Source of the DNA: Jiangella sp. DSM 45060
GTDB taxonomy: Bacteria; Actinomycetota; Actinomycetes; Jiangellales; Jiangellaceae
Direction of reading: 5' to 3'
Assembly: GCF_900105175.1 (NCBI RefSeq)
Contig: NZ_LT629771.1
Span: 5,474,501-5,538,500 of the forward strand
Length of the DNA: 64,000 nucleotides
Shown here: positions 14,791 through 64,000 of the stretch, in pieces
Numbering within the stretch: position 1 is the stretch's first letter
Layout: every line of letters starts with the position of its first letter
The notes under the pieces: model-generated
Database searches by the model: none
Told to the model about the DNA's origin: nothing
Seen by the model: only the letters and a program-made list of their open reading frames with translations
Translations under genes and position numbers: made by a program

Positions 14791-14879
14791 TCCACCCGGT
14801 GGCCACGATGCGACCGCGGACGAACCGGGCCGCGACCCCCGCCGTAGACTGCGTCCGTCGTCGTCGGACCGGGCACCGG

Positions 14880-15431
14880 GTGGGGGTCAGCATCGACGTT
14901 CTCTTCGTGTGCACGGCCGGCCGCTGCCGTTCGCCCATCGCCGCCGCCATGCTCGACACCTACGCGCCGCGGGCCGGGTCGCCGCTGGTGGGCCGGTCCG
15001 GTGCGCTGGTGGGCGCGCACGGCTCGGTGCCGCCGGTCGGCATCACGGTCATGCGCGAGCGCGGACTGGAGCTGGGCGGGCACCGCAGCCTGCCGGTGAC
15101 GCCCGCCGCCGTCGCGTCGGCGGCCCTCGTGCTGGGGATGGAACGCGAGCACGTCCGGGCCGTCGTCGACGACGGCCCGGACGCCTGGGTGAAGACGTTC
15201 ACACTCAAGGACTTCGTCCGCCGGGTCGAGAAGGCCGCCGTCAGGGGCCGGCACCAGCGCTTCACCGACTGGCTGCACCACGTCGGCGAAGGCCGCACCC
15301 GCGACGACATCACCGGCGACGACCCCGACGACGACATCGCCGACCCCTACGGCCAGCGCGCCTCCGTCTGGCGCGAGGTCGTCGACGAGCTCGACGACCT
15401 CGTCCGGCGGCTCATCCCGAACGTCAGCTGA
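14880..15431 (+). CDS. Low-molecular-weight protein tyrosine phosphatase family protein
   Basis: A protein of about 183 residues from GTG 14880. The phosphate loop VLFVCTAGRCRSPIAAAM matches the LMW-PTP C-x5-R-S pattern, and a DPYG near the C-terminus (DDDIADPYGQRASVWREV) supplies the general acid. The middle carries an insertion rich in basic residues (VRRVEKAAVRGRHQRFTDWL) beyond the classical 150-residue fold. Relatives dephosphorylate tyrosine kinases of capsule export (Wzb) or act on arginine phosphate. The gene sits just left of the surface-glycan locus, so a Wzb-like role is conceivable. It converges on the secreted peptide genes. Confidence 0.82.
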   Translation: MGVSIDVLFVCTAGRCRSPIAAAMLDTYAPRAGSPLVGRSGALVGAHGSVPPVGITVMRERGLELGGHRSLPVTPAAVASAALVLGMEREHVRAVVDDGPDAWVKTFTLKDFVRRVEKAAVRGRHQRFTDWLHHVGEGRTRDDITGDDPDDDIADPYGQRASVWREVVDELDDLVRRLIPNVS

Positions 15432-15432
15432 C

Positions 15433-15708
15433 CTAGCAGCTGTCGCCGGTGGCGAACACGTCCCAGATCGTCGCGCTCGGGCCGATGTACTGACTCTCGC
15501 CGGCCGGGACGCAGGCGTAGTTGAACAGCGACGGCGGCATCACGACGTGCCAGCGGACCTCCTGCCCGTGGTCGGTGCAGTTCGCCCAGTAGCGGTTGCC
15601 GTTGACGGCGTAGCTGCCGCAGATCTCGTCGGCCGGCGCCGCCGGCGCCACGCCCAGCGTCAGGACGACCGCGGCGAGCCCGGTGGCCACCGCGCCCCTG
15701 CGCGTCAT
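15433..15708 (-). CDS. Small secreted four-cysteine protein (DUF6355-like), copy B
   Basis: A 91-residue precursor with a Sec signal of about 27 residues (MTRRGAVATGLAAVVLTLGV, cleavage near APA). The mature part has four cysteines (C30, C44, C66, C91) and aromatic-rich spacing: CGSYAVNGNRYWANC, then YACVPAGESQYIG and IWDVFATGDSC. The pattern matches copy A just upstream and resembles the DUF6355 natural-product-associated family. The ATG overlaps the stop of copy A (ATGA), so the two are coupled. Function unknown. The stop faces the end of the phosphatase gene. Confidence 0.72.
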   Translation of the reverse strand: MTRRGAVATGLAAVVLTLGVAPAAPADEICGSYAVNGNRYWANCTDHGQEVRWHVVMPPSLFNYACVPAGESQYIGPSATIWDVFATGDSC

Positions 15709-16019
15709 TCCGGATCCGAACACGGCTCCCCCTCGGAGTAGGCGTCGAGGACCGGGTTGTTGAAGATCTCGTTCAGGTCGTGCACGCCGGGCGCCAGACA
15801 CGCCGTGTACTGGTTGTAGAGGCCGAGGCCGACCATCGTCACCCACACCGGATGGTCGCCACAGTGGTTGTACATGTCGTCGTTGAGGAAGCCGCCGCCC
15901 ACCTCGTAGAAGCCGCACGGCGGCGGAACGGCCTGCGCCGACGCGGCCGCACCGCCCGCGACCACGCCTCCCGCGAGCGCCACCGCGGCGGCGGACCTCG
16001 CTATCTTGCCCCATGTCAT
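15705..16019 (-). CDS. Small secreted four-cysteine protein (DUF6355-like), copy A
   Basis: A 104-residue precursor with a signal peptide (ARSAAAVALAGGVVAGGAAA, cleavage near AQA-VP). Cysteines are C35, C53, C74 and C100 in CGFYEVGGG, NHCGDHPVW, YTACLAPGVHDL and SEGEPC, the same order as copy B. GGAGG lies 7 bases before the ATG. It is 88 bases downstream of the glycosyltransferase gene on the same strand and may be cotranscribed with the PqqD-kinase-glycosyltransferase genes, though that gap could hold its own promoter. No leader or core peptide signature for a known RiPP is visible. Confidence 0.72.
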   Translation of the reverse strand: MTWGKIARSAAAVALAGGVVAGGAAASAQAVPPPCGFYEVGGGFLNDDMYNHCGDHPVWVTMVGLGLYNQYTACLAPGVHDLNEIFNNPVLDAYSEGEPCSDPE

Positions 16020-16107
16020 GCCATGACCTCCTGCCGGTCTCAGGACTGTTGCGTGCCTGAGTACCCGGCAGCGGGGCCGATCGACGGAACGGGCGAATCG
16101 ACCGCCG

Positions 16108-16932
16108 TCAGGCGCGGCTGCTCTCGTCGCGCAGCCAGGTGCCGTCGGCCCGCCGCGCCCGCAGCCGTGACAGCACGGCGGTGCCGAGGAACAGCGCCAC
16201 CTTGGGCGCCAGCCGCGGGTCGGCGGCGACGATGCGGCGCAGGTCGCGCCAGCCGGTGCGCGGTTGCGCCCGGGCTGTGGCCGGACGGTCGCCCGCGACC
16301 AGCCGGGCGTTGCCGGACATCGCCCGGACGCGGCGGCGCAGCAGGTCCGCGTAGGTGCGCGGCGGGCGGATCTCGACGACGGCGCCGGCGACGATCGCCC
16401 GCTCGGCCGGACCGAACGCCGTCGCGACGGCGAGGTCGTCAGCCATGACGTCCTCCCAGGCGCCGAGCCGCTCGTGCCCCTGCTCGGACAGCGCGATGAC
16501 ACCGCGGCCGTACAGTTCGCCGGCGACGTGCGGCAGCCGCTCCCACACGTCGTAGTACCAGCGCACCGGCCAGCCCACGCCGTCCATCGGCAACCGCCGC
16601 CGCGGGCCGGCCGCGAGCACGCCGCCGGTGAGCGCGGCGCACAGCACCCGCAGCTGCGCCGTAGGCAGGACGACGTCGGCGTCGAGGTAGACGCGGGGGA
16701 AGCCGGCCGCCGCATCGTCGCCGAGCCGCAGCGCGTTGCTCTTCGACGCCACCTCGGTCTCGACGACGCGCACCCCGGCGAACCCGCGGGCGATCGCCGC
16801 GGTGGCGTCGGTGCAGCCGTTGGCCACCACCACGACGTCGAACTCGCCGGGCGCCGCGTCGGCGAGCAGCGCCGACAGCGTGCGGCCCAGCACCCGCTCC
16901 TCGTTGTGGGCGGGCACGACGATGCTGGTCAC
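16108..16932 (-). CDS. Family 2 glycosyltransferase
   Basis: A 274-residue GT-A enzyme: VTSIVVPAHNEERVLGRTLSALL at the N-terminus, VVVANGCTDATAAIARGF, and the metal-binding VYLDADVVLP. It transfers a sugar from a nucleotide donor; donor and acceptor are not predictable. The GTG at 16932 overlaps the stop of the HPr-kinase-like gene (GTGA), so it is the third gene of a tightly coupled operon (PqqD-like, kinase-like, glycosyltransferase). This tight link to a recognition protein and a kinase is unusual for an ordinary cell-wall glycosyltransferase. Confidence 0.88.
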   Translation of the reverse strand: MTSIVVPAHNEERVLGRTLSALLADAAPGEFDVVVVANGCTDATAAIARGFAGVRVVETEVASKSNALRLGDDAAAGFPRVYLDADVVLPTAQLRVLCAALTGGVLAAGPRRRLPMDGVGWPVRWYYDVWERLPHVAGELYGRGVIALSEQGHERLGAWEDVMADDLAVATAFGPAERAIVAGAVVEIRPPRTYADLLRRRVRAMSGNARLVAGDRPATARAQPRTGWRDLRRIVAADPRLAPKVALFLGTAVLSRLRARRADGTWLRDESSRA

Positions 16933-17588
16933 GAGCGCGAGTATGGCAGCCCGGCGACGGCGGCAGCGGCGGAGTCCACGTCGGCGGCGTCGAGCCACCA
17001 GCCCTGGACCCGTCCGGCCAGCGCCGCGACCGCCGTCCACGCCGCCGCGCCGTGCCGGTAGTGGTTGAACGACGACGACAGCAGCAGCGTCAGCAGGTCG
17101 CCCGCGGCCATCGGGCCGAGCGTCGTCGCCGCCGCGCCGCGGCGCACCCCCACGACGTGCGCCACCGGGAGCGCCGCCTCGACCGTGGTGCCGCCGAGCT
17201 CCGCGCACGACACCGCGGCCTTGCCCTCGCCGCCGTCGCGCACCGGCAGCCCGAGCGCCTCCTGCGCCCACGGCGTCAGCATGATCGGCCGCGGCCAGCC
17301 GCGCACGGCGCCGGTGCCGAGGTCCAGCGCGACCATCTCGTCGGTCAGGTAGCCGAAGCCGCGCCGGACACAGGCCGCCACCATCGTGCTCTTGCCGGTG
17401 CCGGACTCGCCGGGGAAGAGGACGGCCACGCCGTCGCGCTCCACCGCACCGGCGTGGAACAACAGCTCGGGCGAACGCTCGACGGCCAGTCGCGCGGCGG
17501 CCGCGTAGAGGTCCTCGACGCCGGCATGCCCCTCGGCCGGCACCTCGACGCGCACCCCGATGACGTCGAGCACCACCGGGTCGGTCAT
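16929..17588 (-). CDS. HPr kinase/phosphorylase-like ATPase
   Basis: A 219-residue protein. The P-loop FPGESGTGKSTMV is at about 58-70, preceded by FHAGAVERDGVAVLF, which is the HprK-related kinase pattern. YLTDEMVALDL holds the second metal-binding acidic pair. It lacks the N-terminal DRTGG domain of true HPr kinases. Related enzymes occur with PqqD-like proteins, and in some lasso-peptide clusters they phosphorylate the precursor's C-terminus. Coupled by overlapping codons to the PqqD-like gene upstream and the glycosyltransferase downstream. Confidence 0.85.
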   Translation of the reverse strand: MTDPVVLDVIGVRVEVPAEGHAGVEDLYAAAARLAVERSPELLFHAGAVERDGVAVLFPGESGTGKSTMVAACVRRGFGYLTDEMVALDLGTGAVRGWPRPIMLTPWAQEALGLPVRDGGEGKAAVSCAELGGTTVEAALPVAHVVGVRRGAAATTLGPMAAGDLLTLLLSSSFNHYRHGAAAWTAVAALAGRVQGWWLDAADVDSAAAAVAGLPYSRS

Positions 17589-17866
17589 GCGTGCGGAGCG
17601 CCGTCGACGACGTGGTGGTCGGCGAGCTGGCGCAGCGCCGCGTGCACCCCGGTCCGGATGGTGCCGGCGTCGGCGGCGTACACCCGGGCCAGCTCCTCGA
17701 CGATGTCGGCGACCGTGCGCCGGCCGTCGAGCAGCCGCCAGACGTCACTCGCGGTCTCGTTCAGCACCAGTGCCGTCTGGGTGGGCTCGTGGAAGAGGGT
17801 GACCGCGCCGTCGACATGGAGTTCGCGCACGGCGTGGGCGCGCGAGAGGGGCGGGGGCGCCGTCAT
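17585..17866 (-). CDS. PqqD-family peptide-recognition protein
   Basis: A 93-residue PqqD-like winged-helix (RiPP recognition element): VRELHVDGAVTLFHEPTQTALVLNETASDVWRLLDGRRTVADIVEELARVY. The family binds leader peptides and presents them to modifying enzymes. It is the first gene of a three-gene operon with an HPr-kinase-like ATPase and a glycosyltransferase. The ATG at 17866 lies 8 bases after a TACCCT box, compatible with a near-leaderless mRNA. No obvious precursor is adjacent apart from the two small secreted proteins downstream. Confidence 0.88.
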   Translation of the reverse strand: MTAPPPLSRAHAVRELHVDGAVTLFHEPTQTALVLNETASDVWRLLDGRRTVADIVEELARVYAADAGTIRTGVHAALRQLADHHVVDGAPHA

Positions 17867-17935
17867 GGACCCCAGGGTAGCCAGGCCCGCAACCGGGCGC
17901 TCCGGCTCGGGGCGACAAATGGTCAGTTATGCCGT

Positions 17936-17968
17936 TATGATGCACGCCAGCGCACGGGGGGCGTGCGC
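17936..17968 (+). promoter_or_regulatory. Promoter and leader hairpin of the LPXTG gene
   Basis: TATGAT at 17936-17941 is a good -10 box. A few bases downstream GCGCACG (17950-17956) and CGTGCGC (17962-17968) form a perfect 7-bp hairpin whose 5-base loop is all G. The hairpin lies in the presumed 5' leader, 20 bases before the ATG at 17989, and could influence translation. Confidence 0.6.
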
Positions 17969-17988
17969 ATTGACTCGATGGGGCCGAT

Positions 17989-18489
17989 ATGCCACACGAT
18001 GATGTCACCGGGCTCAGCCGCCGGCAGGTGCTCCGCCGCGGCGTCGCCGTCGGGACAGCGGTCTGGACGGTGCCCACGGTCACCGCCATCACGCTGACCC
18101 CCGCGAACGCCGCGTCGCCCAGTGGCGAACCGCCGACCGAGCCGCCGAAGCCTCCCACGGAGCCGCCGAAGCCGCCGACGGAGCCGCCCACTGAGCCGCC
18201 GTCGAACGAGACGACGCCGCCGCCGTCCACCGAGACCACGCCGCCTCCGTCGAACGAGACGACGCCGCCCGGCAGCACCAGCACGCCGTCGGGCAAGCCT
18301 CGGCCGCCCGCCGACGAGGACAACGACGACGACACCACCGCGGGCGGGCTGCCCAACACCGGCCCGGGCGACGTCGCCCAGGGGCTGGCGGTCGGCGGGC
18401 TGCTCACGGCGGCCGGCGCGGCCATGTACGTGGCGTCGCGGAAGGAGTCCCCCGCGCCGGGCGACGCACAGCCGGGAGCGACCGTCTGA
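17989..18489 (+). CDS. LPXTG-anchored, proline-rich surface protein with Tat-like signal
   Basis: A 166-residue precursor. The N-terminus has a twin-arginine motif (GLSRRQVLRRGVAVG) and a hydrophobic stretch ending TPANA. Residues about 45-105 are repeats of TEPPKPP, TEPPSNETTPPP and similar, a wall-spanning spacer. The sortase signal LPNTG is at 121-125, followed by a hydrophobic helix (LAVGGLLTAAGAAMYVA) and a basic tail SRKE. There is no folded domain between spacer and anchor. It precedes the glycan cluster. No sortase is in the window. Confidence 0.86.
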   Translation: MPHDDVTGLSRRQVLRRGVAVGTAVWTVPTVTAITLTPANAASPSGEPPTEPPKPPTEPPKPPTEPPTEPPSNETTPPPSTETTPPPSNETTPPGSTSTPSGKPRPPADEDNDDDTTAGGLPNTGPGDVAQGLAVGGLLTAAGAAMYVASRKESPAPGDAQPGATV

Positions 18490-18530
18490 GGGGCGGCACG
18501 CTCGACCAATGAGCCTGGGGGGGCTGCTTC

Positions 18531-19739
18531 ATGGGGGTCTGGGGTGGAGCCCGGCGGCGTGCGACGCCACGGGTGCTGATCGTCGTGCAGAACATCCCGG
18601 TGCGGATCGACCGCCGGGTGCGCCACGAGTGCAGGGCGCTGCTCGACGCCGGGTACGGCGTCACGGTGATCTGCCCGAAGGAGACGCCGGACGAACCGGA
18701 CGTGCACGAGCTGGACGGCATCGTGGTGCGCTCGTACCAGCCGCCGCCGGCGACGTCGGGGCTGGTCAGCTACCTCGTCGAGTTCGTCGTCTGCTGGCTG
18801 CGCACGGCCCGGCTGTCGCTGCGGGCGGCCCGCGCCGAGGGCTTCGACATCCTGCAGGCCTGTAACCCGCCGGATACCTACTGGCTGCTCGGCCTGCTGT
18901 GGAAGCTGCGCGGCAAGCGGTTCGTGTACGACCAGCACGACCTGTGCCCGGAGGTCTACGAGGCGCGGTTCGGCAAGCGCGGCCCGCTCTACCGGGCCCT
19001 GCTGCTGCTCGAGCGGGCCACCTACGCCACCGCCGACCGCGTGGTCAGCCCGAACCCGTCGTACCAGGAGGTCGCGCTCACCCGCGGCAAGGTGCCGATC
19101 GGCCGCACCGCCGTCGTCATGAGCACGCCCGACCCGGAGCAGATGAAGGCCGGCCCGCAGCACCCGGAGCTGCGCGGCGGCCGCGAGTTCCTGGTCTGCT
19201 ACATCGGCATCATGGGCCCGCAGGACGGCGTCGACCGCCTGCTCGACGCCGCCGCCCACTACGTGCACACGCTGGGCCGGACGGACACCCGGTTCGGGCT
19301 GCTCGGGTACGGCGACAGCCTCGACGACCTGCGCGCCCAGTGCACGCGGCTGGGCCTGGACGAGTGGGTCACGTTCACCGGCCGGGTCGACCAGGCCGAG
19401 CTGGGCCGCTGGCTGTCGACCGCCGACGTCGGCGTGACCCCGGACCCGCCGTGCGAGTTCAACCACCGCTCCACCATGAACAAGACGCTGGAGTACATGG
19501 CGCACGCGGTGCCCGTCGTCGCGACGGACCTGCGCGAGACCATGCGCTGTGCCGGGCCGGCCGCCGACTACGTGCCCGACGGCGACCCGGTCGTCATGGC
19601 CAAGACCATCGCCGCCCTGCTGGACGACCCGCACCGGCGCGCGCAGATGGGCGCCGCCGGCCGGCGGCGGATCGAGACCGAGCTGGCCTGGGCCGACCAG
19701 GCCCGCCGCTACGTCGACCTGATCGGGTCGCTGCGATGA
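18531..19739 (+). CDS. Family 4 glycosyltransferase
   Basis: A 402-residue GT-B enzyme. The N-terminal domain has RVLIVVQNIPVRIDRRVRHE and FDILQACNPPDTYWLLGLLW; the C-terminal donor domain has FLVCYIGIMGPQDGVDRLLDAA, FTGRVDQAELGRWLSTADVGV and TLEYMAHAVPVVATDLRE. It retains anomeric configuration when moving a sugar from an NDP donor to a lipid or glycan acceptor. A run of seven Gs (18517-18523) lies 7 bases before the ATG. Its stop overlaps the start of the next methyltransferase gene, so it leads an operon. Confidence 0.92.
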   Translation: MGVWGGARRRATPRVLIVVQNIPVRIDRRVRHECRALLDAGYGVTVICPKETPDEPDVHELDGIVVRSYQPPPATSGLVSYLVEFVVCWLRTARLSLRAARAEGFDILQACNPPDTYWLLGLLWKLRGKRFVYDQHDLCPEVYEARFGKRGPLYRALLLLERATYATADRVVSPNPSYQEVALTRGKVPIGRTAVVMSTPDPEQMKAGPQHPELRGGREFLVCYIGIMGPQDGVDRLLDAAAHYVHTLGRTDTRFGLLGYGDSLDDLRAQCTRLGLDEWVTFTGRVDQAELGRWLSTADVGVTPDPPCEFNHRSTMNKTLEYMAHAVPVVATDLRETMRCAGPAADYVPDGDPVVMAKTIAALLDDPHRRAQMGAAGRRRIETELAWADQARRYVDLIGSLR

Positions 19740-28636: not shown

Positions 28637-28681
28637 CCACGGTGAGCGGACCCGCCACGCGGCGGGCTCCGCTCACCGTGG
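28637..28681 (+). terminator. Long hairpin after the beta-helix gene, overlapping the racemase start region
   Basis: The outer stem CCACGGTGAGCGGA pairs exactly with TCCGCTCACCGTGG, and an inner CCCGCC/GGCGGG extends it to about 20 bp with one bulged base and a 4-base loop. It starts 15 bases after the beta-helix stop. It also covers both plausible GTG starts of the racemase, so it may act as a terminator, an attenuator or a translational lock. Confidence 0.8.
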
Positions 28682-29376
28682 GCGTGCTCGGCGGCATGGG
28701 TCCGATGGCGACGGTCGAGGCGTTCCGCCGCATCACCGCGATCACACCGGCGCACAGCGATCAGGAGCATCTGCACGTGTTCGTCGACTCCGACCCGTCG
28801 ATCCCCGACCGGACCCGGGCGCTGCTCCATGGAGGCGAGGACCCGCGCCCCAAGCTGCTCGCCAGCGGTCGCCGGCTCATCGACGCCGGGGCGGAGCTCA
28901 TCTGCCTGCCGTGCAACACGTCGCATGCGTTCTACGAGTGGCTGCAGGAGCGCATCGACGTGCCGATCGTGCACATGGTCGACGAGGCCGCGACCGCGGC
29001 GAGGAAGCGCGCCAAAGGCTCGTTGTGCGGCCTGCTCGCGACCTCGGGTACGGCCGCGACCGGCATCTACGCGACGGCACTGCACCACGTCGGCCTGGAA
29101 ATCGCCCTGCCCGGCGCCGAGCACCAGCGGGCCGTGCACGAGTCGATTTCGGTGATCAAGGCCGGCGGGTCGCTCGACGACGCGGCCGCGCTGTGCGCCG
29201 AGTCCGTCGATGCCCTCCTCGCCGACGGCGCGACCATGCTGATCCTGGGTTGCACGGAGCTGTCGCTCATCGCCGACCGGCTGGGTCATACTGCACAGGT
29301 CGTCGACGCGCTCCAGGCCATGGCGGAGGCCACGGTCGACATCGCGCTCGGCCGGCGCGCGGCCGTGTCCCTCTGA
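28642..29376 (+). CDS. Aspartate/glutamate racemase family protein
   Basis: About 244 residues. The three family motifs are present: LTVGVLGGMGPMATVEAF at the N-terminus, the first catalytic cysteine in LICLPCNTSHAFYEWL, and the second in LILGCTELSLIA. The enzyme interconverts L- and D-Asp or Glu, or a related acid, without PLP. The start is uncertain: GTG 28642 or 28678 lie within the hairpin, and an ATG at 28558 lies inside the previous gene. It is followed 12 bases later by the asparagine-synthetase-like gene, which suggests a D-amino-acid decoration for the polymer. Confidence 0.85.
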   Translation: MSGPATRRAPLTVGVLGGMGPMATVEAFRRITAITPAHSDQEHLHVFVDSDPSIPDRTRALLHGGEDPRPKLLASGRRLIDAGAELICLPCNTSHAFYEWLQERIDVPIVHMVDEAATAARKRAKGSLCGLLATSGTAATGIYATALHHVGLEIALPGAEHQRAVHESISVIKAGGSLDDAAALCAESVDALLADGATMLILGCTELSLIADRLGHTAQVVDALQAMAEATVDIALGRRAAVSL

Positions 29377-29388
29377 CCTGGTGAGGCC

Positions 29389-31263
29389 ATGTCCTACGAG
29401 ATCCTCCTCAGTTGCGGTTCCGATCGGCCCGAGGACCGCGCCCGACGCCGGGCGACCGTCGGCCGCGCCGCCGGCCTGGTGCCCGGCGCCACGTCGTCGC
29501 GCATCGCCGAGACACCCACCGCGACGTGTGCGCTCGTCGCCACCGAGCCGGCCGGTGGCACGCTGGCGGAGTTCCGTGAGGACGCTTCGGGCTCCTTCGT
29601 GGCCGTCGCGACCACCGCGCATGGGCTGGCGGTCGCGGCCACGTCGGATGGCCAGCTCGCCGGCGCCGAGGCCGGGCACGTGGGCGTGCACCTGCGCACC
29701 GACGGCACGGTGTCCGCCGGCACCGACGGCATGGCGTTCCTGCCCGCCTACTGGGCGGAATCCGACAGCGGCGGTCTGTTGCTCTCGACCCATCTCGCCT
29801 CGCTGGTCAGCCTCGGGCTGCCGAACCGCGTCGACGAGCGCGGCCTCCTCGAATACCTCGTGATGCTCCACCCGCTTCAGGAGCGGACGCTGCTCGCCGG
29901 CGCCGGACTGCTCGCCCCCGGCACCCACCTCGAGTGGAGTCAGGCCGACGGCGGCCACCGCAAGGGCATGCCGCTGTTCCAGCCGTCAGCCGAGTCCATG
30001 TCCGACGACGAGGCCGTCGCGGCCTTCGCGGAAGTCTGGCGCGAGGTCGTCGCCGACGTCCTCGGGCGCAACGCCGGCGCGCGCCTCGCGTTGGGCCTCA
30101 GCGGCGGCCTCGACAGCCGCGCCATCGCCGTCATGGCCACCGAGCTGGGTGCGCGGCCGGTGAGCTACACCTATGGCAACGGCCGGAACCGCGAGGCCGT
30201 GGTGGCGGCCCGAGTGGCCGAGCGCCTCGGCCTGCCGCACGTGCAGGTTCCGGTCACCGACGATCGCCTGCTGCGCCAGGCGCCGCGCATCGCCGACCGC
30301 CTCGACGGAGCGCACAGCCCGGCCGAGATGTACGAGCTGTGGTTCGACGACCTGCTGCCCACGTTCGCGGATGTCATCGTCAACGGGCTGGCCGGCGGCC
30401 CGATCTGGGGTGACGACAAGGGGTTGGGTATCACCGACCCGACGCAGGCGGCCGAGCGCCAGTGGCACCGCTACCAGGGCAGCGTCGCCGCCATGGCTCC
30501 GTATCTCAGCGACGACGTGCGCGGCGAGGCGCCGGCCGTGATCCGCGACGGCCTCGCGGAGTCGATGGCCGGGTGGGACTTTTCGCAGCGCGGCGACGCC
30601 GTGATCTTCTGGAAGCTCGCCAACCGCCAACTCCGGTGGGGCAACATCCTGGTGAACGCTCTGCGCCGGTCCGGGCTGCGCATCGAGGCACCGTTCCTGG
30701 ACAGCCGGGTCCTGCGGTTCGCGTCGCGGCTCACCACCGACCAGCGCCGCAACGGGACGCTCTACCTGCAGGCCCATCGGGAGCTGTTCGCAGCCACCGC
30801 GAACATCGGCCGCAGCGACGACGGCAACAGCCCGCACGGCCTCACCCACGTCTACTGGTCCGGCGACAGCTCATTCCTGGGCCAGCTGTCAGCACTGGGC
30901 CGCAGGCACCCGGTGTCCGCGGGCCGCCGCGCCGCGCGGTTCGCGCTGCAGACCGGCGCCGGCCACCTGCGGCAGCGCACGGGGTTGGCTCGACCCGCCG
31001 ACGTCATCGACAGGCGCGCCTCTGTGTTCCCGGCGGACCTCTGGGCCCGCACGAGGCCGGTCTATGCGCAGCGGCTCGCGACCTTCCTCGAAGCAGCGCC
31101 GCCGAGCCCGCTGCTCTCCGAGTCCGCGATCGCGAGGGCCGCGGCCGAGCTGCGCGCCGGGCGGTCGCCGTCGGACCCGCTGCTGCTCGCGAAGGTCGCC
31201 ACTGCCAACCACTGGCTCGCCGACTACGCGACCCGTGCGGCCGCCGTCAACGGGGCCGGCTAG
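29389..31263 (+). CDS. Asparagine synthetase-like protein lacking the glutaminase cysteine
   Basis: A 624-residue protein. The C-terminal synthetase half has the PP-loop ATP motif LALGLSGGLDSRAIA (about residues 226-240), YTYGNGRNREAVVAARVAERLGLPH and IEAPFLDSRVLRFA. The N-terminal half keeps the Ntn-like layout (FREDASGSFVAVATT, LLLSTHLASLVSLGL) but begins MSYEILLSC, without the Cys2 nucleophile needed to release ammonia from glutamine. It may therefore form amide bonds from ammonia or an amino acid, as lasso cyclases and some O-antigen amide-forming enzymes do. GGTGAGG precedes the ATG. Confidence 0.85.
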   Translation: MSYEILLSCGSDRPEDRARRRATVGRAAGLVPGATSSRIAETPTATCALVATEPAGGTLAEFREDASGSFVAVATTAHGLAVAATSDGQLAGAEAGHVGVHLRTDGTVSAGTDGMAFLPAYWAESDSGGLLLSTHLASLVSLGLPNRVDERGLLEYLVMLHPLQERTLLAGAGLLAPGTHLEWSQADGGHRKGMPLFQPSAESMSDDEAVAAFAEVWREVVADVLGRNAGARLALGLSGGLDSRAIAVMATELGARPVSYTYGNGRNREAVVAARVAERLGLPHVQVPVTDDRLLRQAPRIADRLDGAHSPAEMYELWFDDLLPTFADVIVNGLAGGPIWGDDKGLGITDPTQAAERQWHRYQGSVAAMAPYLSDDVRGEAPAVIRDGLAESMAGWDFSQRGDAVIFWKLANRQLRWGNILVNALRRSGLRIEAPFLDSRVLRFASRLTTDQRRNGTLYLQAHRELFAATANIGRSDDGNSPHGLTHVYWSGDSSFLGQLSALGRRHPVSAGRRAARFALQTGAGHLRQRTGLARPADVIDRRASVFPADLWARTRPVYAQRLATFLEAAPPSPLLSESAIARAAAELRAGRSPSDPLLLAKVATANHWLADYATRAAAVNGAG

Positions 31264-42738: not shown

Positions 42739-43908
42739 ATGGCGGGGTCGGTTGACGCCTCGACCGTTCCGACGAACACCGCGTCCGCGCGCCACCGGGC
42801 GGCCGTCTCGGCCGCGGTGGCCGAGGTCTGCCGTGCGAAAGCGCCGGTGCTGGCCGGCAACGGCGCCGTGCGCGACGCGTTCGTCACGGCCGTGCGCCAT
42901 CACCGCGTGGCGCCGCTCGCCCACGTGCTGCTGCGCGAGTCCGACCCCGCCGTCGCCGCCGAGCTGAAGGCCGACCGCGACGCCGCGATGATCCGCCACC
43001 TCACCGCGTCCGTCGTGCTCGACGATCTCGGCCGCACGCTCGGCGAGCTGCCGTGGGTGACGATCAAGGGGCCGGTGCTGTCCGAGCACGCCCATCCCGC
43101 GCCCGGGCTGCGCTCCTACACCGACGTCGACGTGCTGGTGCCGCCGCAGCGGCTGCGCTCGGCGGTCGAGTCGCTGACGGCGGCGGACTGGCAGGTCATC
43201 GACTTCCAGGACATGCTCTACAACGTCCAGACCCCGGGCGAGATCCACCTGGTGAGCCCGCGCGGCGTGCTGGTCGACCTGCACTGGTCGCTGATCAACA
43301 TGCAGCAGACCCGCCGCCAGTTCACCGTCGACACCGGCGAGCTGCTGGAGCGCCGGGTGCGGCGGCCGGTCGGCGGCGCCGCGACGTGGACGCTCGACCT
43401 CGCCGACTCGCTGGTCCACGTGTGCCTGCACGCCGCGCTCACCGGCGCGCACAAGATGCTCTGGCTACTCGACGCCGACCAACTCGCGCGTCAGGTGGAC
43501 GACTGGGACGAGGTCGCCCGGCGGGCCGCCGGCTGGGGCGCGGCGCCGGCGGTGGCGATCGTGCTGGCCAGGTCCCGGGCGTTGCTGGGCACGCCGCTGC
43601 CACCCGACCTCGACCGCCGGCTCGGCGTCTCGGCCGGCCTGCGGCTGGTCACCGGAGCCGTCGACCGGTTCCGGCCGGTGTCGGGACTGACGCAGGAGGC
43701 GTCGCTGCCGCGACTGGTGGCCCGGTCGGCGCGCTCCAGCGGCGGGCGGACGCTGTCGGCGATCGGTCGGCGCGGGCTGCGCGGGGTCGGCGAGCGGTTG
43801 CGGCCGGGTGGGCGGGCCGGCGACGGGGCGCGGCGCGAGCCGGCCGACGCGGCGGCGCTGGCCGCCTACCTGGACGCCGTCGAGGCGCACGCGCGGACGG
43901 CGACCTGA
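42739..43908 (+). CDS. Nucleotidyltransferase-fold protein (NTP_transf_5 type)
   Basis: A 389-residue protein: VTIKGPVLSEHAHPAPGLRSYTDVDVLVPPQRL holds the nucleotidyltransferase DxD, then GEIHLVSPRGVLVDLHWSL and the helical HVCLHAALTGAHKMLWLLDADQLARQV. This family is found beside lasso-peptide and related RiPP genes with HPr-kinase-like proteins and may modify a phosphorylated peptide. The ATG at 42739 follows six Gs and CCAC. TACCAT at 42674-42679 may be a -10 box. The stop overlaps the start of the ABC exporter by one base. Confidence 0.85.
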   Translation: MAGSVDASTVPTNTASARHRAAVSAAVAEVCRAKAPVLAGNGAVRDAFVTAVRHHRVAPLAHVLLRESDPAVAAELKADRDAAMIRHLTASVVLDDLGRTLGELPWVTIKGPVLSEHAHPAPGLRSYTDVDVLVPPQRLRSAVESLTAADWQVIDFQDMLYNVQTPGEIHLVSPRGVLVDLHWSLINMQQTRRQFTVDTGELLERRVRRPVGGAATWTLDLADSLVHVCLHAALTGAHKMLWLLDADQLARQVDDWDEVARRAAGWGAAPAVAIVLARSRALLGTPLPPDLDRRLGVSAGLRLVTGAVDRFRPVSGLTQEASLPRLVARSARSSGGRTLSAIGRRGLRGVGERLRPGGRAGDGARREPADAAALAAYLDAVEAHARTAT

Positions 43909-45914
43909 TGGCGCGGCACGCGGCCGGACGGTCCGGCACCCGGGCCCGAGCGGCGCAGGCGGCGCGCGGCGGCGCACCGTCCCCGTCTCGGCCCGGCTCG
44001 GGCGACGCCGCTCTGCCGCCGGTGGCCGACGACCTCCCGCCTCCGCCTCCGGACGACGAACCACCGGTCAGCGACGACTACGTCGACCTCGCGGCGTCGG
44101 CGCGGCGGCAGCGGCGGTCGGTGGGCCGGCTGCGGGCGCTGGTCGAGCACAGCATCCGGCTCACGTGGGCCGCGGACCGGCGCGCGTTCGTCGTCACGAC
44201 GGTGCTGCAGCTGTTCGGCGCGGCCGTCATCGCGGCGCAGGTGCTGATCGTCAAGGCGGTGCTCGACGCCATCCTGGTGGTCGGCGACGGCGGCGGGGTC
44301 GGGCCGGTCGTGCTGCCCGTCGTGCTGCTGGCCACCATCACGGCGCTGGTGGCGGTCGCGTCGGCGATCCAGACCAACCAGCAGCGGCTGCTGTCCGAGC
44401 TGGTGCTGCGCTCGACCTGGCAGCAGCTGCTGGACGTCGCCGGTGCGGTGGGGCTGCGGGCGTTCGAGTCGCCGGAGTTCTACGACCGGCTGCAGCGGGT
44501 GCAGACCAACGCGCTGAGCCGGCCCTACCAGCTCACCCAGGGCCTGGTCGGCCTGGCCGGCGGGCTGGCCGGCTGCATCGGGCTGTCGATCGCGATCGTC
44601 AGCTTCGAGCCGGCGCTGCTGCCGATCCTGCTGCTGGCAGGCGTCCCGCTGTTCTTCAGCACCCGCCGCGAGAGCCGCCTGGAGTTCGACTTCGCCGTCG
44701 CGCAGACGCCGCGACTGCGGCTGCGTCAGTACCTCGGCCTGGTGCAGACCGGCCGCGACGAGGCGAAGGAGGTGCGGGCGTACGGGCTGACCGGCGCGCT
44801 GCGGGCCCGCTTCGACGCCGTCTACTCCGCGTACACCGATGACCTGCGGGTGCACCTGCGCCGCCGCACCCGGCTGGCCGTGGCCGGCAACCTCGCGTCG
44901 GCGGTGTTCCTCGCCGCCACCCTGCTGGCGCTGGTCTGGCTGGTCGGCCAGGGCCGGGTCACGCTGGCCGAGGCCGGCGCGGCGATCGTCGCGATCCGGC
45001 TGCTGGCCACCCAGGTCGGCACCCTGTTCAAGGGCGCGCAGCAGATCTTCGAGTCGGGGCTGTTCCTCGACGACCTCGACCGGTTCGTGGCGATGCGGCC
45101 GGAGGCCGAGCAGGCCGAGTCGGGCGCCCCGGCGCCGGCGTCGTTCGGCGCCCTGCACGCCGACGGCCTCAGCTTCACCTACCCGGGCAGCACGGCGCCG
45201 GCGCTGGACGACGTGTCGATCCGGCTGAACGCCGGCGAGATCGTGGCGCTGGTCGGCGAGAACGGCTCCGGCAAGACGACGCTGGCCAAGCTGCTGGCGA
45301 CGCTGTACGAGCCCGACGGCGGCACGATCCGCTGGGACGGCGTCGACGTCGCGGCGTACTCGCGGCCGGGGCTGCGCCGGTCGGTCGCCGTCGTCTTCCA
45401 GGACTTCGTCCGCTACCACCTGTCCGCGCGCGAGAACGTCGGCCTGGGCGACGCCGACCGCATGGACGAGATCGACGCCATCGCGGCGGCCGCCCGCCGG
45501 GCCGGCGTCGCCGACGTCATCCAGGACCTCCCGCACGGCTGGGACACCGCGCTGTCGCGGATGTTCAAGGGCGGCCGCGACCTCTCGCTGGGCCAGTGGC
45601 AGCGGGTCGCCCTGGCCCGCGCCTTCTTCCGCGACGCCCCGTTCGTCATCCTCGACGAGCCCTCGGCGTCGCTGGACCCGCGGGCCGAGCACGCGTTGTT
45701 CCAGTCACTGCGCGACCTGCTCGGCGGCCGGACGGTGCTGTTCATCTCGCACCGCTTCTCCACCGTCCGCACGGCCGACCGCATCTACGTCCTGAGCGAC
45801 GGCCGGGTGACCGAGCACGGCTCGCACGACGAGCTCATGGCCCGCGACGGCCACTACGCCGAGCTGTTCCGCCTGCAGGCCGCCGCCTACCTCTCCCCCG
45901 AAGCGTCGCACTGA
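43908..45914 (+). CDS. ABC exporter, fused permease-ATPase
   Basis: A 668-residue type IV half-transporter. A proline-rich cytoplasmic N-terminus of about 75 residues precedes six hydrophobic helices (FVVTTVLQLFGAAVIAAQVLIVKAVLDAILVVG, LLPILLLAGVPLFF). The ATPase domain starts near residue 405: Walker A GENGSGKTT from residue 450, signature DLSLGQWQRVALARAF, Walker B FVILDEPSASLDP. Coupled (TGATG) to the nucleotidyltransferase, as in lasso or class II peptide exporters, it could export a modified peptide or glycolipid. No peptidase C39 domain is present. Confidence 0.92.
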   Translation: MARHAAGRSGTRARAAQAARGGAPSPSRPGSGDAALPPVADDLPPPPPDDEPPVSDDYVDLAASARRQRRSVGRLRALVEHSIRLTWAADRRAFVVTTVLQLFGAAVIAAQVLIVKAVLDAILVVGDGGGVGPVVLPVVLLATITALVAVASAIQTNQQRLLSELVLRSTWQQLLDVAGAVGLRAFESPEFYDRLQRVQTNALSRPYQLTQGLVGLAGGLAGCIGLSIAIVSFEPALLPILLLAGVPLFFSTRRESRLEFDFAVAQTPRLRLRQYLGLVQTGRDEAKEVRAYGLTGALRARFDAVYSAYTDDLRVHLRRRTRLAVAGNLASAVFLAATLLALVWLVGQGRVTLAEAGAAIVAIRLLATQVGTLFKGAQQIFESGLFLDDLDRFVAMRPEAEQAESGAPAPASFGALHADGLSFTYPGSTAPALDDVSIRLNAGEIVALVGENGSGKTTLAKLLATLYEPDGGTIRWDGVDVAAYSRPGLRRSVAVVFQDFVRYHLSARENVGLGDADRMDEIDAIAAAARRAGVADVIQDLPHGWDTALSRMFKGGRDLSLGQWQRVALARAFFRDAPFVILDEPSASLDPRAEHALFQSLRDLLGGRTVLFISHRFSTVRTADRIYVLSDGRVTEHGSHDELMARDGHYAELFRLQAAAYLSPEASH

Positions 45915-62128: not shown

Positions 62129-63124
62129 CTACTGCGCGACGCCCAGGCGGCGCCTCGCTACGGCCGAGACCCGGGAGACACCCCCCAGCCCGACGGCGTC
62201 GGCGATGGCCGGCGCGACCGCCGGCGAGAACGGCGGGCCCCACGGCACGTGCGCCACGAACACCGGGACCCGCTCGACCAGCTCGCCCGCCTGCTGGAAC
62301 TGCCGGTCCAGGATCTCCGGATCGGTCCAGCCGAGCAGCCGCGGGAACCGCAGCAACGTGATCAGCGCGTCCATGGCGCCCATGCGGGTCAGCTCGATCG
62401 ACGCGCGCTCCCGGTCGGGCAGCGGGAACACGATCCCGGCCAGCGGCACCCGGTCGGCCCGCGACGGCGCCACGCTCAGCGCGTCGCGGGCGTCGCTGGT
62501 GAGCCGGCTGGACGGTGCGACGGCGAACTGCTCGACCAGCTCGGCGGCGGACTTGCGCAGCCGCAGCTCCGTCGCGCCCAGCCGGCAGACCGGCCGCCCG
62601 TCACCGTCGTCGTCCAGGCGGAGGACGTCGTCGGTGATCAGCGTGCCGCCGGCCGCGCACATCAAGGTCGCCATCGTCGACTTGCCCATGCCGGACCGGC
62701 CGACGAACGCCACCGCGCCGCCGCCGATCTGCACCGCGCTGGCGTGCAGCACGACGTCGCCGCGGATCGTCACGAGAAACGACAGCAGCGCACCGGCGGT
62801 CAGGATCCCGGCGATGCCCGGGTCGGCCCCCTCGACGACGTGCACCCGCACCGAGCGGCCGTCCGGCGCGACGACGAAGTCGCAGGTCCGGTAGAACCGC
62901 AGCAGCCAGCCTCCGTCGGCGACCTGGGTGAACGTGTAGTACGGCTGGTCGGTCTCCAGGTGCGCCAGCACCCGCCCGGCCGGCGCGTGCGTCGTCAGCG
63001 GCACCGGGTCGCCCCACCGGATGTCGACGTCCGGCTCCCCCTCCGCCGCGACGGCGCGTTCCTGGTGCAGCGGGACCTCCGAGGCCACCCGCAGCCCGTA
63101 CAGCAGCTGCCGCTCCGTCCTCAT
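62129..63124 (-). CDS. HPr kinase-like enzyme of a lasso-type operon
   Basis: A 331-residue protein. The P-loop VGRSGMGKSTMATLM lies at about 141-155, preceded by VVLHASAVQIGGGAVAF, with TLITDDVLRLDDD as the second metal site. The N-terminal 110 residues (LLYGLRVASEVPLHQE, RFYRTCDFVVAPDG) match kinases found in lasso-peptide clusters, which phosphorylate the precursor's last residue. It overlaps the B2 stop (ATGA) and is the last gene of the operon. It is distinct in length and N-terminus from the kinase at 16929. Confidence 0.87.
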   Translation of the reverse strand: MRTERQLLYGLRVASEVPLHQERAVAAEGEPDVDIRWGDPVPLTTHAPAGRVLAHLETDQPYYTFTQVADGGWLLRFYRTCDFVVAPDGRSVRVHVVEGADPGIAGILTAGALLSFLVTIRGDVVLHASAVQIGGGAVAFVGRSGMGKSTMATLMCAAGGTLITDDVLRLDDDGDGRPVCRLGATELRLRKSAAELVEQFAVAPSSRLTSDARDALSVAPSRADRVPLAGIVFPLPDRERASIELTRMGAMDALITLLRFPRLLGWTDPEILDRQFQQAGELVERVPVFVAHVPWGPPFSPAVAPAIADAVGLGGVSRVSAVARRRLGVAQ

Positions 63125-63576
63125 CGCGTCCCGCCCAACGCCTCGAACGTCCGGTACGTGGCGGCGCCGACCGGGTCCAGGCTCACGCCGTCGATCTCCA
63201 GCCACGCGTGCGCCTGGATCCGCCCCTCGACCTTGGCGACGCCGACCCGCAGCACCGGCTTCCGGCGGCGCAGCACGTGCCCGCCGACCAGCGCGCGGCG
63301 CAGACAGGTGTCGCCGAACGGCCAGTGCCGCAGCACGCGCCAGGTGGCGCGCAGCCGCCGCCGCTCGGTCGCGGACAGCCGCGCCGTCGCACCGCCGGCC
63401 GGCATCAGCGGCGACTCCTGCTCCAACCCCAGCGGAGCGCCCAGCCAGGCGGCCAGGCGCGGCAGCCGCGCGACCCGCAGGCCGACCTCGACCGTCGCGG
63501 CGATGACGGTGGCCGCCCAGACGGACGGCCACTCGCGCGGCGGTACGGCCCGCACCAACGTCAGGGGATTCCTCAT
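63121..63576 (-). CDS. Lasso peptide biosynthesis B2-like (transglutaminase-fold) protease
   Basis: A 151-residue protein with the B2 catalytic triad: C91 in FGDTCLRRALV, H123 in IQAHAWLEI, and D134 in SLDPVG. The N-terminal half is helical (PREWPSVWAATVIAATVEVGLRVARLPRLAAWLG). B2 proteins cut the leader peptide from lasso-type precursors, guided by a PqqD-like B1 protein. It overlaps both neighbours by four bases (ATGA), within an operon of cyclase-like, B2 and kinase-like genes. Confidence 0.9.
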   Translation of the reverse strand: MRNPLTLVRAVPPREWPSVWAATVIAATVEVGLRVARLPRLAAWLGAPLGLEQESPLMPAGGATARLSATERRRLRATWRVLRHWPFGDTCLRRALVGGHVLRRRKPVLRVGVAKVEGRIQAHAWLEIDGVSLDPVGAATYRTFEALGGTR

Positions 63577-64000
63577 TCGGCACCTCGTGGAGGGCTGGGC
63601 TGCGCGGCCAGCCAGGCCTGCTGCAGCAGCGTGCCGGACAGGGTCGACGGCCGGTCGGACAGCCAACCGGCCCGCAGCGCCTCGGGATCGACGAGTTCGG
63701 CGTCCACGCCCGAGCCGTCCCAGTCGCGGGCGAACGCGCGCGTGGGCTCGCCCATGTAGGCGCGGTCGAAGCTGGCCTTGCTGGACCGGCGCAGGATCTC
63801 GTCGGGCAGCACGTCGGCGAAGAGGATGCGCATCAGCGCGGTCCGCCCGGCGAACCCCCACCGGCCGCCGAAGCGCGTGAGAGCGGCGAGGAAGCCGGTG
63901 TCGAGCAGCGGGTGCCCGACGGCGACGTCGAACTCGGCGCCCAGCGCGGCGTAGTTGGCGATGACGGCGTCGACGGCGCGGCGGTGCCGCACCCACCACA
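63573..64000 (-). CDS. Asparagine synthetase-like (lasso cyclase-like) protein, C-terminal part
   Basis: The frame is open to the window edge, so the N-terminus lies outside. About 142 residues remain: VGHPLLDTGFLAALTRFGGRWGFAGRTALMRILFADVLPDEILRR and SSKASFDRAYMGEPTRAFARDW match the C-terminal helical part of asparagine synthetases and McjC-like lasso cyclases. Cyclases form the isopeptide ring after B2 cleavage. Adjacent B2 and kinase genes support that reading, but plain asparagine synthetase cannot be ruled out from this fragment. Confidence 0.8.
   Translation of the reverse strand, partial: WWVRHRRAVDAVIANYAALGAEFDVAVGHPLLDTGFLAALTRFGGRWGFAGRTALMRILFADVLPDEILRRSSKASFDRAYMGEPTRAFARDWDGSGVDAELVDPEALRAGWLSDRPSTLSGTLLQQAWLAAQPSPPRGAE

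Follow-up and report, generated by a model that had tools for sequence, protein, structure and literature searches.

The PqqD-like protein (PqqD1), HprK-like kinase (HprK1) and GT2 glycosyltransferase encoded side by side in Jiangella sp. DSM 45060 have a conserved partner, which is a divergently encoded surface protein at 17989–18489 of the DNA stretch analysed here (64,000 nucleotides, contig NZ_LT629771.1, positions 5,474,501–5,538,500; hereafter the window). A first-pass annotation of the window had assigned the partner role to two small secreted proteins, A and B, encoded downstream of this triad, and it had overlooked the plus-strand gene. The set resembles the linear polyphosphorylated peptide (LPP) system of Bacillota (Popov et al. 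2026, PMC13381572) and may represent an LPP-like system of Actinomycetota, in which a RiPP (ribosomally synthesized and post-translationally modified peptide) recognition element (RRE) and a kinase would act on surface proteins exported by the twin-arginine translocation (Tat) route. We consider such binding and modification an evenly balanced proposition.

The surface-protein gene accompanies PqqD1 and HprK1

PqqD1 and HprK1 adjoin in all 13 Jiangellaceae loci compared (the window and 12 relatives), and GT2 directly follows HprK1 in 11 of them, one of which ends at a contig end. In 13/13 loci, no more than 260 bases separate the surface-protein gene from PqqD1. Among the 22 family genomes, a leader profile made from the N-terminus of the surface protein (13 aligned rows) matched at E<1e-20 in each of the 13 that carry HprK1 and in none of the nine that lack it (Fisher 2e-6, relatedness ignored); of these nine, G010 gave a weak match (1.9e-4), and two, G003 and G004, have a completeness of just 75 and 81%. 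The LPXTG sorting signal of the protein exceeds the TIGR01167 cut-off (19.8 bits against 15.9) and falls just below that of the Pfam anchor (19.8 against 20). Six sortases are encoded in the genome.

The leaders share a fixed geometry. A W-x-x-P-x-[VI] motif lies within the signal peptide, with Trp at −16 from the AxA site in 17 of 17 leaders (13 from Jiangellaceae and those of the distant loci L074, L075, L076 and L078), which places Pro at −13 and Val or Ile at −11. Ser occupies position +4 in 16 of the 17.

The predicted fold of PqqD1 is that of a lasso RRE. The lasso RRE TbiB1 is its closest solved sequence (1.4e-10), and the TbiB1–leader complex is the best PDB fold for its model (predicted local distance difference test, pLDDT, 79.9; template modelling score 0.80/0.84). 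By hand mapping, Asn33 and Tyr60 of LppB, the RRE of the LPP system, correspond to Asn36 and Tyr63 of PqqD1. HprK1 scored under every curated cut-off (PF07475, 21.7/33.3 bits; TIGR04352, 82.3/200; TIGR00679, 22.7/240), and the PF07475 and TIGR00679 scores led us to reject an identity as HPr kinase/phosphorylase proper. Structures of PEPCK and HprK/P match the model predicted for HprK1 (pLDDT 92.9), and His45, the P-loop Lys66, Asp83 and the adjoining Glu84 are kept in 14 of 14 aligned rows. A PqqD-like protein beside an HprK-related kinase also recalls HPr-rel-A (TIGR04352/TIGR04353), an identity rejected because both scores lie far under the cut-offs (16.2/35 bits for TIGR04353).

The five-gene operon proposed by the first-pass annotation is rejected by its distribution across the family genomes. 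Its description of the window itself was accurate: five minus-strand genes are present, PqqD1, HprK1 and GT2 are chained by 4-base overlaps, and A and B, with four cysteines each (invariant in 4/4 copies), are coupled by another. The term paralogous for A and B finds weak support, as BLASTP returned nothing and a profile comparison gave 41% probability (E 2.8e-4). Secreted A belongs to DUF6355 (PF19882, 6.5e-10; 39.6 bits, gathering cut-off 26.6), and no Pfam family matched B in the Pfam search. That the twin four-cysteine proteins are the substrates is very improbable. They do lie on the same strand, 88 bases downstream of GT2, and the order recurs in G005 and G013 (HprK1 96% identical), but the pair was not found in the other 10 of the 13 enzyme loci, including that of G014 (HprK1 88%), where GT2 stands beside the phosphatase gene with no A/B pair between. 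DUF6355 occurs in four of the 22 family genomes and was found in none of those 10; its fourth carrier, G010, has the pair again (on a 3.2-kb stretch) and yields no HprK1 or PqqD match. The N-terminal parts of A and B also contain no [YW]xxP motif. A and B are therefore treated as passengers outside the system on the grounds of the 3/13 loci and the pair in G010, and what is retained from the earlier interpretation is the idea that an RRE and an HprK-like kinase form the basis of a system modifying a peptide or protein. At locus L206 (G010:C7, 1205–1800), the DUF6355/four-cysteine pair forms a two-gene secreted cassette.

Recurrence in other Actinomycetota

Same-leader proteins recur beside related enzymes outside Jiangellaceae. 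A search of genome contigs recovered 25 loci encoding HprK1 relatives, five of which are from Actinomycetota outside the family, all metagenome-assembled. In four of these (L074, L075, L076 and L078), a protein with the same leader is encoded no more than 0.5 kb from PqqD or HprK; the fifth, L077, is truncated at the kinase. The arrangements differ: the gene is divergent in L074, it lies downstream in L075 and L076, on the same and the opposite strand respectively, and in L078 it stands between the enzyme genes. The bodies behind the leader also differ, with LPXTG-like ends, a Cys-containing secreted domain and a Ser/Thr repeat. The family profile found no such leader protein in the other 11, non-actinobacterial loci of the 25. 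A leader regular expression also matched six of these 11, L077, and L074 and L076 again; by eye, these matches are not Tat leaders.

The association between leader and kinase extends to a set of 396 Actinomycetota genomes. The leader profile matched at least 23 of them and the HprK1 profile at least 39, both counts being lower bounds because at most the best 17 leader and the best seven kinase candidates were scored per genome. All nine genomes with a leader at E≤1e-5, a cut-off picked after the list was seen, have an HprK1 match, compared with at least 39/396 overall (chance 3.5e-10, or 3.6e-9 without the window genome). From at least 55 HprK matches, 52 partly overlapping regions were taken, leaving out two matches of G000 (the window genome) and one overlapping match of G341. 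Ten leaders, falling in nine of the 52 regions, lie within 2.5 kb of the kinase (243 kb of DNA) versus three beyond that distance (595 kb; p 5e-4); one of the three is the leader of L156 seen again in the overlapping L164, and the others lie at +2712 in L154 and −8570 in G037. The raw regular expression gave no useful contrast (20 matches in 286 kb close to kinases versus 31 in 552 kb far from them), so the profile was used in its place.

The leader may also track one class of kinase. By motif classes assigned by hand after the leader results were known, Glu occupies the second motif position in 17 of the 52 loci, and a leader lies within 2.5 kb in nine of these 17 versus none of the other 35 (Fisher 6.6e-6). 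Of the 17, two have E-E in place of D-E; L183 showed no P-loop, the P-loop of L195 was mispicked, and one of the nine, L158, has a leader with no Trp.

Several observations weigh against an LPP-like system acting on these proteins. At a leader cut-off of E≤1e-3, just 10 of the 23 genomes have HprK1, and most of the weak matches resemble generic Tat signals. No leader lies within 2.5 kb in 43 of the 52 HprK regions, several of which hold lasso kinases with B2 or PqqD2-type neighbours. Among the fetched leader loci, a partner was found within 1.5 kb for 10/18 WxxP leaders and 2/12 non-WxxP leaders (p 0.058, with L095 misclassed and L113 a second view of the L091 contig). At the D-D-type locus L200, the regular expression alone picked up a similar leader. 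The 17/17 count for Trp is to some extent a product of selection, as the family profile served to find the distant leaders; another AxA would also fit in four of the 17, and by visual inspection the +4 Ser is not kept in the leaders linked to kinases at L149, L151, L152 and L156. The pocket of PqqD1 is not a copy of that of LppB because, by the same hand mapping, the cleft-dividing Phe74 and the Tyr-binding Asp70 of LppB become Ala77 and Gly73; in L074, L076 and L078 the RRE retains Asp at the latter position, yet the leader carries Trp. Within the window, the PF14907 nucleotidyltransferase NT5 sits 25 kb from the triad. At a distance of 11 kb from the triad, an Asn-synthase-like gene (29389–31263; 47–53% identity matches in five relatives) might act as a cyclase, and it was not tied to the set because it was found in the examined stretches of only six of the 13 genomes. 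Finally, the archaeal-type signal peptidase (SpI) of LPPs was not found near the set, and the one match to TIGR02228 in the genome is sub-threshold and 3.7 Mb away.

Relation to LPPs, the polysaccharide island and the lasso cluster

The set shares most of its parts with LPPs. According to the LPP report (PMC13381572), the LppA leader carries Tyr−16, Pro−13 and Val−11, with phosphorylation at Ser3, and [Y/W]xxPx[L/V/I/F/A] is the motif bound by discrete lasso RREs; the conserved genes encode an RRE, an HprK-like kinase, a nucleoside triphosphate (NTP) transferase, SpI and an MsbA-like exporter, lie in polysaccharide loci, often beside lasso clusters, and are stated there to be restricted to Bacillota. 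Both systems have a discrete RRE, an HprK-like kinase, an NTP transferase (here of family PF14907), a polysaccharide island, a lasso neighbour and precursors with a conserved N-terminus and a variable C-terminus, and [Y/W]xxPxV stands at −16/−13/−11 in both, with the modified Ser at +3 in LPPs and the conserved Ser at +4 here. In contrast, the present set belongs to Actinomycetota, and its precursor bears a Tat-type leader and an LPXTG-type anchor. The kinase motif of HprK1 is D-E, whereas D-D is reported for lasso kinases, and PqqD1 does not group with LppB in a weak tree. Only the [YW]xxPx[VI] part of the full LPP leader (YxxPxVLxHQxIxFETxxS) is present, and we do not file the system as an LPP, though it may work like one, because this motif is incomplete and the signal peptidase was not found. 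No report of an RRE with a Tat leader appeared among the matches listed in a search of the open-licence PubMed Central literature.

Regulation or assembly of polysaccharide would offer another role for PqqD1, HprK1 and GT2, with the kinase opposed by a low-molecular-weight (LMW) phosphatase-like protein (14799–15431) and the surface protein merely an island gene. The set does stand at the edge of an island with Wzy, flippase and glycosyltransferase genes, and the phosphatase gene adjoins the triad in the window and six relatives. We regard this role as unlikely: an RRE has no evident part in such regulation, and the phosphatase was not found in the examined stretches of G011, G016, G018, G001 and G017. 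The link between leader protein and enzymes also holds in G012, despite its different glycan genes, and in G002, on a contig of 6 kb that carries an ABC gene, NT5, the LPXTG-type gene, PqqD1, HprK1 and part of GT2 and no other glycan gene.

A true lasso peptide cluster lies at the window end and beyond (62129–64000 and G000:C1 5538501–5540200), with an RRE (PqqD2), cyclase, B2, the kinase HprK2 and two precursors that carry YxxPxL leaders and end in Ser. The triad could be a second tailoring set for lasso peptides, in which PqqD1 binds the leaders and HprK1, NT5 and GT2 decorate the product. The cluster is 46 kb away, HprK1 and HprK2 occur together in 12 of the 13 genomes (as do the genes for PqqD2, the cyclase and B2), and the tail of the lasso peptide pseudomycoidin is modified by a kinase together with a nucleotidyltransferase (PMC9266682). 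Nonetheless, this role seems rather improbable. The lasso cluster comes with an RRE and a kinase of its own, and G001 keeps PqqD1, HprK1, GT2 and NT5 as well as the LPXTG-type protein, while its 79 kb examined held no lasso set and the whole genome gave one PqqD and one HprK match, which weakens the case for a single lasso system including the triad. A 97/97 branch, flagged for long branches, also separates PqqD1 and four distant relatives from PqqD2, TbiB1, LppB and TfuB1; in the same tree, which is weak, the LppB segment groups with PqqD2/TbiB1 and one PqqD segment falls on the PqqD1 side. The RRE and HprK-like kinase, and in some cases the nucleotidyltransferase, are shared with the phosphorylated lasso peptides paeninodin and pseudomycoidin (PMC9266682), but no B2, cyclase or short precursor adjoins PqqD1–HprK1–GT2.

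Further features of the window are listed in Table 1. The polysaccharide island (18531–45914) encodes GT4, GT2s, a flippase, Wzy, a pyruvyltransferase, C-methyltransferases and an NTP transferase. It is flanked by the two RRE/kinase sets, and its content varies among relatives while the sets stay. An Asp/Glu racemase adjoins the large Asn-synthase-like protein inside the island (28678–31263). The island also encodes an ABC half-transporter, compared here with the MsbA-like exporter of LPPs; no close match to it was found in the 79 kb examined of G001, where the lasso set was also not found. Just beyond the lasso cluster (L005, 4210–7188), cysN/cysD-like and inositol-phosphatase-like genes for sulfate activation were recognized by eye, and a sulfated product is conceivable. 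Scans of 15300–18700 gave one weak promoter-like site on the plus strand, which was not used for any conclusion, and no terminator.

Table 1. Coordinates of the features discussed, with their assignment and its basis
Feature	Position	Strand	Assignment	Basis
PqqD1	17585..17866	-	Discrete RRE (PqqD-like), 93 aa	PF05402 4.4e-16
HprK1	16929..17588	-	HprK-like kinase, 219 aa	TIGR04352 3e-23, under cut-off; invariant residues; fold
GT2	16108..16932	-	Glycosyltransferase, accessory	PF00535 2.7e-14; neighbourhoods
Secreted A	15705..16019	-	DUF6355, outside the system	3/13 loci; also in G010, with no PqqD or HprK1 match
Secreted B	15433..15708	-	Outside the system	3/13 loci; also in the G010 pair
Surface protein	17989..18489	+	Predicted substrate; Tat-type signal, Pro/Thr-rich, LPNTG-type, 166 aa	LPXTG match; beside PqqD1 13/13
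W26-T-V-P29-T-V31	18064..18081	+	RRE-docking-like motif in the Tat-type signal	Alignment, geometry, published motif
Ser45	18121..18123	+	Predicted phosphorylation site, +4 after AxA (39-41)	Invariant in 11/11 rows
NT5	42847..43908	+	PF14907 nucleotidyltransferase, probable partner	9.6e-38; next to the LPXTG-type gene in G002
ABC half-transporter	44121..45914	+	Probably lasso exporter, role here unsure	PF00005 1.1e-32
HprK2	62129..63124	-	Kinase of the neighbouring lasso cluster	H-K-D-D residues read from the sequence
B2	63121..63555	-	Leader peptidase, lasso cluster	PF13471 7.9e-13
Lasso cyclase	63573..64000	-	Asn synthase-like, truncated at the end of the window	PqqD2 and two precursors lie beyond

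Proposed maturation of the surface protein and its implications

Tat proofreading chaperones are known, and RREs are known from peptide natural products. In the mechanism that we propose, the RRE PqqD1 would bind the Tat-type signal peptide of the divergent surface protein through W-x-x-P-x-V, and, with the signal peptide bound and so withheld from the Tat translocon, HprK1 would phosphorylate a serine shortly after it, predicted to be Ser45. NT5 and, where present, GT2 may then add a sugar or nucleotidyl-sugar to the phosphate; their placement as later steps follows the pseudomycoidin precedent (PMC9266682). Release from the RRE would be followed by Tat export, cleavage by signal peptidase at AxA and sortase anchoring at LPNTG, steps that are proposed because of the sequence signals in the 17989–18489 protein. 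A recognition and kinase module of RiPP style would in this way mature a wall-anchored protein, perhaps marking it or joining it to the polysaccharide of the island.

PqqD1 could instead be only a Tat signal-peptide chaperone, with HprK1 phosphorylating something else and the surface protein bound and left unmodified. The position of the motif within the Tat-type signal and the existence of Tat proofreading chaperones would fit such a function, which we nonetheless consider improbable, as PqqD1 and HprK1 are neighbours at every one of the 13 loci, and in the LPP system the kinase modifies the precursor bound by the RRE (PMC13381572).

If the proposed maturation is correct, an RRE docked to a Tat signal peptide would connect RiPP chemistry to the export of proteins and their anchoring at the surface. 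The range of a system reported as exclusive to Bacillota would then include another phylum, and kinases whose products have no known biological role would gain a concrete substrate and residue. More broadly, and more tentatively, RREs may read Tat signal peptides in several lineages of Actinomycetota, which would phosphorylate exported surface proteins with very different bodies, perhaps also glycosylating them or coupling them to polysaccharide, in a system arisen independently of the Bacillota LPPs. The association of the surface protein with the enzymes suggests that peptide-modifying chemistry may also serve surface proteins.

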